From an uncultured Methylobacter sp. (GTDB taxonomy: Bacteria > Pseudomonadota > Gammaproteobacteria > Methylococcales > Methylomonadaceae), in assembly GCA_903832775.1 (NCBI GenBank), contig CAILCX010000071.1, forward strand, positions 41,056 through 105,055: DNA of 64,000 nucleotides, written 5' to 3'. The first letter of the stretch is position 1. Each line of letters starts with the position of its first letter. The notes below the pieces were generated by a model that was not told the origin of the DNA, made no database searches, and saw only the letters and a program-made list of their open reading frames with translations. Below, piece by piece: positions 46,493-47,688 of the stretch. The translations under genes and the position numbers were made by a program.

Positions 46493-46888
46493 ATGACAGA
46501 AAATATTTTAAAAACACCTTATGAATTGATGGGTGGAGAAGCAGTATTGCATGAGCTGGTAGACCGGTTTTATTTTTTTATGGACACCTCGCCTGATACA
46601 TGGACAATTCGAGCTATGCATGCAGAAGATTTATCGGTAGCCAATGCTAAATTATTCAAATTTTTGTCAGGTTGGTTGGGCGGGCCGGATTTATTTATTC
46701 AGGAATACGGTCATCCAAGGTTGCGTCAACGACATTTCCCGTTCGCGATAGATATAGAAGCAAAAGATGAGTGGATGTTATGTATGAATAAAGCTTTAAA
46801 TGAAATAATCACTGATTTAGGTTTTCGTGAATACTTATGTCAGGCTTTGCAACAACTGGCAACTCATATGATTAATCAGGATTCCTAA
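46493..46888 (+). CDS. Group II truncated haemoglobin
   Basis: Small haem protein of the 2-on-2 globin class, 131 residues. Signatures include PYELMGGEAVLHELVDRFYFFM (B-helix Tyr), LFKFLSGWLGGPDLFIQEYGHPRLRQRHFPF (proximal His in RHFPF) and DEWMLCMNKAL (Trp G8). Group II proteins bind oxygen tightly and take part in nitric oxide or peroxide detoxification or in oxygen delivery to oxygenases. No dedicated partner is adjacent. Confidence 0.9.
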   Translation: MTENILKTPYELMGGEAVLHELVDRFYFFMDTSPDTWTIRAMHAEDLSVANAKLFKFLSGWLGGPDLFIQEYGHPRLRQRHFPFAIDIEAKDEWMLCMNKALNEIITDLGFREYLCQALQQLATHMINQDS

Positions 46889-46968
46889 AGGTTGATGGTC
46901 GATTAAATTTATAAAACACATAAGCTTAATTAAATTCTGTATCCAAAAGTCAGCTGAAGAGAAATCTC

Positions 46969-47688
46969 ATTTCTAATTTAACATTTTCCTACCAAATTCG
47001 CCGTAGCGCTAAAGCCAGGCAAACACGAATTGTCGTGACTCCCGGTAAAGTTGAAGTTGTTGCTCCGGTTAAGGTTTCCGAGCATAAAATCGAGCTTTTT
47101 GTTCGAGCCAAGCAGCAATGGGTTATTGATGCTTTAGCTAGAATTCATACTAAAAGTCAACAACATAAATCGTTGGCCCCGGCTGTTTATGAACACGGCG
47201 CTGAAATTCCTTATCAGGGAACAACTTATAAATTAGCTATTAAGCCAACAAAATTAAAAAGGATAAAAATTGAGTTTGTTCTCGAGTTTATTGTTCATGT
47301 TCCTGAAATATTAATTAATAAAGATCAAAGTGCAGTAATAAAAGACGCCTTAATTCGCTGGATGAAAAAAGAGTCAATGACTCAAGTAGAAAAGCTGGTA
47401 AACCAGCATGCGGAAAAAAAACAATTGTTTCCTCAGTCAATTAAAATTAAAACTCAAAGAAGCCGCTGGGGCAGTTGCGGCATTAATAATGACATTAATA
47501 TCAATTGGCTTTTATTGATAGCGCCACTTGAAGTTCTTGAATATGTAGTAGTGCATGAGTTATGTCATATACAAATTAGAAATCATTCGGCTCAATTTTG
47601 GGCTTTGGTCGCTGAACATTTGCCAGATTATCAAAGGCGAAGGCAATGGCTGAAAAAGTATGGCAGCAGCTTGATGTTGGGTTTGTAA
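46969..47688 (+). CDS. YgjP/DUF45-type zinc metallopeptidase, probable ATT start
   Basis: M48-like metallopeptidase with the zinc motif HELCH (VVVHELCHIQIRNHSAQFW) and the closing DYQRRRQWLKKYG typical of DUF45. The track starts at GTG 47035, but the conserved N-terminus (SYQIRRSAKARQTRIVVTPG) is encoded upstream in the same frame, which stays open back to 46930. No ATG, GTG or TTG precedes it in frame. ATT at 46969, with AAGAGA 6-12 bases before it, gives ISNLTFSYQIRRS, where families have M; CTG 46954 is an alternative. I annotate 239 residues from ATT. Confidence 0.75.
   Translation: MSNLTFSYQIRRSAKARQTRIVVTPGKVEVVAPVKVSEHKIELFVRAKQQWVIDALARIHTKSQQHKSLAPAVYEHGAEIPYQGTTYKLAIKPTKLKRIKIEFVLEFIVHVPEILINKDQSAVIKDALIRWMKKESMTQVEKLVNQHAEKKQLFPQSIKIKTQRSRWGSCGINNDININWLLLIAPLEVLEYVVVHELCHIQIRNHSAQFWALVAEHLPDYQRRRQWLKKYGSSLMLGL

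Follow-up and report, generated by a model that had tools for sequence, protein, structure and literature searches.

Translation start of a ygjP-like metallopeptidase gene

The window analysed here, a stretch of 64,000 nucleotides from an uncultured Methylobacter sp., carries a metallopeptidase gene with no obvious initiation codon, and the question that it raises is where translation begins. The first-pass annotation had proposed an ATT at 46969. The open frame spans 46930-47688 on the forward strand, and it is bounded on its 5' side by an in-frame TAA; as that annotation had noted, it contains no ATG, GTG or TTG ahead of GTG 47035, which is therefore the first canonical codon. Codons are counted from 46930, which makes ATT 46969 codon 14 and GTG 47035 codon 36, and AUH denotes AUU, AUC or AUA. 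The principal features are as follows:

46927-46929, forward strand: in-frame stop codon TAA, bounding the frame on its 5' side
46969-47688, forward strand: coding sequence of the ygjP-like metallopeptidase, re-annotated with an AUU start (239 codons plus stop; from the open frame, PF01863 and the AlphaFold2 model)
46969-46971, forward strand: ATT, assigned as the initiation codon (ATT in 22/22 Methylobacter and in 35/41 AUH-start genomes; sister lineages have ATG or GTG here)
47035-47037, forward strand: GTG, first canonical candidate, rejected as the start (not conserved; its use would remove strand E9-12 and most of E20-24)
47554-47568, forward strand: HELCH (HExxH) zinc-binding motif, then an invariant NHS (alignment invariance)

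The product is YgjP-like and matches PF01863 (formerly DUF45) with 186.5 bits against a cut-off of 26 (E 8e-55; profile positions 2-206 of 207). The match opens five codons 5' of GTG 47035, at residue 31 of the frame (profile position 2), and a further block conserved in relatives, FSYxIRRSxRA, is encoded by codons 19-29 and, therefore, lies entirely 5' of this GTG; the conserved N-terminus does indeed precede the first canonical start, as had been claimed. His196, Glu197 and His200 of the HELCH motif, together with Asn205-His206-Ser207, are invariant across the 19 rows of our alignment (A1). On sequence grounds, we class the protein among the YgjP-like zinc metallopeptidases; its HELCH motif is intact, and peptidase activity is predicted. 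An AlphaFold2 model of the 239 residues that follow from the ATT has a mean pLDDT of 91, and its fold opens with strands at residues 9-12, 20-24 and 27-32; the fold of the zinc/catalytic domain resembles those of the minigluzincins/selecase and Wss1. A search by sequence for a solved structure gave a weak match to proabylysin alone, and we found no function for YgjP in the literature.

Conservation of the ATT within Methylobacter

The gene was located in 22 Methylobacter genomes, counting that of the window, and the codon aligned with ATT 46969 is ATT in every one of them, none of its three bases varying. The flanking codons differ among the genomes, with GTC, ATC, GTT, CTC or GCC at codon 13 and TCT, TCA, TCC, TTT, GCT or ACA at codon 15. 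Ten columns are invariantly Ile in the 22 proteins, and the start column alone uses a single codon, the other nine mixing ATT, ATC or ATA; on the gene tree, it has undergone no change, versus 1-8 changes for each of these nine. For the 89 conserved degenerate columns, the mean is 4.7 changes, and just one other column has zero. Taken alone, the codon invariance would be modest evidence; the positional evidence is the stronger. Upstream of codon 10, no protein-level conservation is seen among the 22 genomes; such conservation sets in at the ATT.

The T-to-G change that would give AUG was seen in none of the 22 congeneric species. One genome (G003; locus L019) has gained an ATG five codons 5' of the ATT, and the ATT is still kept, whereas two others (G011 and G020) have a GTG or TTG 9-10 codons 5' of it; these upstream canonical codons might be usable as starts in the three genomes concerned.

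Given that the window derives from a draft assembly (3.86 Mb in 215 contigs), an error that conceals an ATG has to be considered, and a check against relatives had been suggested for this purpose. ATT is shared at this position by 22 separate genomes of Methylobacter, one of which (G019) is assembled into 3 contigs, and by other genera; because independent assemblies of relatives share the AUH codon, we regard a sequencing or assembly error as excluded for all practical purposes.

The equivalent codon in sister lineages

In all, 138 loci were read, leaving 131 family members after six outgroups and one distant paralog had been set aside. An AUH start is apparent in 41 genomes of these methane-oxidising Methylomonadaceae, from eight genera, being ATT in 35, ATA in 4 and ATC in 2. 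Sister genera have ATG or GTG at the equivalent codon, and ATT, or ATA/ATC, reappears in genera further removed. ATT recurs in the genera g17, g18, g19, g20, g28 and g31, and in g3 (L024, L138, L163 and L172) the apparent ygjP start at this position is ATA or ATC. ATG takes the place in g14, g30, g32 and most of g29; within g19, the codon is GTG in one genome and ATT in its three congeners. The earlier proposal that the ATT sits exactly where homologs begin is, therefore, upheld, as canonical starts occupy the identical codon in the sister lineages.

Most AUH-start rows fall in a 53-row clade of the tree (SH-aLRT 96), with g3 and g17 outside it. Parsimony gives 8 state changes, a rough figure because the rows counted include a distant paralog and a mislabelled entry (L005, an internal TTG). 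AUU may have been the ancestral state, reverting to AUG several times, or it may have originated repeatedly.

In one g3 genome (L172), the AUH start comes directly after TAA TAA GGA (TAATAAGGA); in g28 (L092, L097 and L102), heptamer tandem repeats, (ACTGCTA)n, extend to within about 20 nt of the ygjP ATT.

Alternative start sites

As the first canonical codon of the frame in the window, GTG 47035 is the start that gene finders would be expected to choose; initiation there, or at another downstream canonical codon, would leave the conserved upstream stretch untranslated. The relatives argue strongly against this, as the codon is not kept (GTG in 10, GTA in 9 and GTC in 3 of the 22 Methylobacter) and their first canonical codons are scattered anywhere from codon 17 to codon 102. 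Moreover, codons 15-35 are conserved as protein in the genus, with variation mostly at third positions, and a protein beginning at the GTG (residue 23 from the ATT) would lose strand 1 and most of strand 2 of the model. We consider a downstream start to be very improbable.

A start further upstream would have to use CTG 46954, or to depend on read-through or frameshifting out of an overlapping frame or the preceding globin gene:

46493-46888, forward strand: truncated globin gene, directly upstream, a conserved neighbour (PF01152, E 1.2e-33)

CTG 46954 is in frame, and CTG is capable of weak initiation, but this codon (codon 9) is not conserved, and codon 10 is a TAG stop in 12 of the 22 Methylobacter, where the sequence reads TAGAGA-N6-ATT and the open frame is left with just three codons ahead of the ATT. 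The globin stop lies at a varying distance upstream, 30-350 nt or more, and the overlapping frames, in which a small ORF or a frameshift was sought, contain neither a conserved start nor a conserved open frame upstream. An upstream start of any of these kinds is, in our judgement, highly unlikely. More generally, an in-frame canonical codon upstream is absent in 34 of the 41 AUH-start genomes, and in 18 of them, from Methylobacter and other genera, the start follows the opening of the frame by just 3-4 codons, too few to accommodate a second one. The three outcomes that had been named in advance as telling against the ATT, namely an N-terminus at GTG 47035, one at CTG 46954 and a hidden ATG, are thus all excluded by the relatives, and the comparison indicates that ATT 46969 is a real and long-conserved start.

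The leader and the globin neighbour

The leader contains the following element:

46957-46962, forward strand: AAGAGA, weak Shine-Dalgarno-like element (ends 6 nt before the ATT; duplex energy with the anti-Shine-Dalgarno)

The first-pass annotation had described this as a purine-rich element at normal distance; the spacing stands, but the site is weak, at about -2.9 kcal/mol versus -9.3 kcal/mol for infC of the same genome. An AGA codon occupies this position in 18 of the 22 Methylobacter, and the duplex energy is -2.9 kcal/mol in most of them, close to the mean of -2.5 for random upstream windows; the 3' end of the 16S rRNA, as seen in a congener, is canonical. A strong or extended Shine-Dalgarno, which is typical of infC, cvfC1 and ccpN although not required by definition, is not found in ygjP, and compensation for the ATT by a strong site is not seen in most genomes. 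Where ATG holds the equivalent codon, the site is weaker still (mean -0.19), the groups compared not being phylogenetically independent. A special mRNA fold at the leader can also be set aside, as the region is less structured than its shuffles (z = +1.0).

Much of the family keeps the truncated globin gene and ygjP together as a pair, and at most Methylobacter loci the globin gene precedes ygjP at 30-247 nt from the ATT. We rejected translational coupling to this neighbour as a general explanation: the gap ranges from 19 to >350 nt among AUH genomes, and in g14, where the globin stop and the ygjP start are only 0-13 nt apart, the start is ATG; coupling, therefore, does not explain the ATT.

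A model for initiation at AUU

We think it very probable that AUU initiation at 46969 is genuine, that it proceeds from a weak Shine-Dalgarno with the ordinary initiator tRNA, and that its output is low and probably sensitive to IF3. The 30S subunit would bind via the AAGAGA at its normal spacing, on an mRNA possibly shared with the upstream globin gene, and the ordinary initiator fMet-tRNA (anticodon CAU) would read AUU with a third-base mismatch. This pairing would be disfavoured by IF3, such that initiation would rarely succeed and the protease would be made in small amounts. Selection would keep the weak codon, presumably to limit the dosage of the protease.

Low and IF3-sensitive output in Methylobacter is inferred from the precedents of infC, pcnB, sigR, cvfC1 and ccpN. 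In vitro, the reading of AUU by the anticodon CAU is increasingly disfavoured as IF3 rises (PMC10158994), AUU and AUA reporters in Staphylococcus aureus give about 10% of AUG output (PMC13009471), and in sigR a GTC start is subject to repression by IF3 (PMC5472188). The AUU start of Escherichia coli pcnB limits translation (Binns and Masters 2002, as cited in PMC13009471 and PMC9410913). The ygjP codon is one mutation from AUG yet conserved, suggesting that low output has been selected, as reported for pcnB, and the weak start probably keeps the protein scarce. Conservation is, however, informative about the position of the start and not about the amount of protein. Against this model, the Shine-Dalgarno of ygjP is weak, whereas those of the AUU and AUA starts described so far are strong.

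infC and pcnB as controls, and a possible link to IF3

The same comparison was applied to two genes with known AUH starts. infC starts with ATC, rather than ATT, in all 30 members of the order tested (L193-L222), including the genome of the window, and in Methylobacter its start follows closely on a stop codon and is served by a strong GGAG. In pcnB, an invariant ATT occupies the position of the E. coli AUU start (ATT TTA AAC TTC TTT AAA AAA) in 16/16 Methylobacter (L228-L243, among them L240); about half of these also have a GTG three codons upstream, where most of the others have GTA. Known AUH starts are thus recovered by the comparison, with ygjP as a putative third case in this genome.

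A stronger form of the preferred explanation, and one compatible with it, is that the ATT serves as a dedicated switch, through which ygjP would track the level of IF3 as part of an IF3-controlled set with infC (ATC) and pcnB (ATT). The uniform starts of infC and pcnB are in keeping with this idea, as is the repression of non-canonical starts by IF3 in both E. coli and Streptomyces (PMC5472188). However, ygjP has no known role in translation, and a steadily low output would account for the conservation just as well; a link to IF3 is plausible, but we regard a dedicated switch as doubtful. Going further, Methylomonadaceae might maintain infC, pcnB and ygjP as an IF3-sensitive AUH-start set, in which protease output would follow the IF3:ribosome ratio, and the AUU, AUA or AUC starts would have been held or regained in at least eight genera because this coupling is selected; we offer this as a speculation that is rather unlikely to be correct.

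Comparison with known systems and implications

AUU starts are rare: only two E. coli chromosomal genes are known to have one (PMC9410913), with a few others elsewhere, and a survey of reconstructed ancestral starts found a change to AUU for only 1 of 61,358 AUG starts (PMC5622118). Like ygjP, infC has an AUH start that is conserved across a lineage; it is disfavoured by IF3, as that of ygjP would be, but infC has a strong Shine-Dalgarno, encodes IF3 itself and autoregulates, whereas ygjP has no known feedback. In pcnB, an AUU start limits translation of a non-essential enzyme and the ATT is likewise conserved in Methylobacter; many Methylobacter pcnB genes, however, have a canonical codon nearby upstream, whereas 19 of the 22 ygjP genes have none in the open frame. 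S. aureus cvfC1 (AUU) and ccpN (AUA) also represent conserved AUH starts in ordinary genes, albeit with an extended, strong Shine-Dalgarno in place of the weak AGAGA of ygjP. Finally, the non-canonical start of Streptomyces sigR is conserved within its genus (GTC in 32 of 34, GTT in two; PMC5472188), but it is not AUH, it follows a strong Shine-Dalgarno and it belongs to a stress-response regulator.

Thus, ygjP joins the known genes with a conserved AUU start, and it is unusual in the persistence of this start across the family and in its weak Shine-Dalgarno. Standard gene finders probably truncate ygjP in dozens of genomes, and similar AUH-start cases could be found by the same comparison. 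For the family itself, an AUU that is kept throughout one genus and recurs as AUU, AUA or AUC elsewhere constitutes a natural experiment on selection for a weak start.
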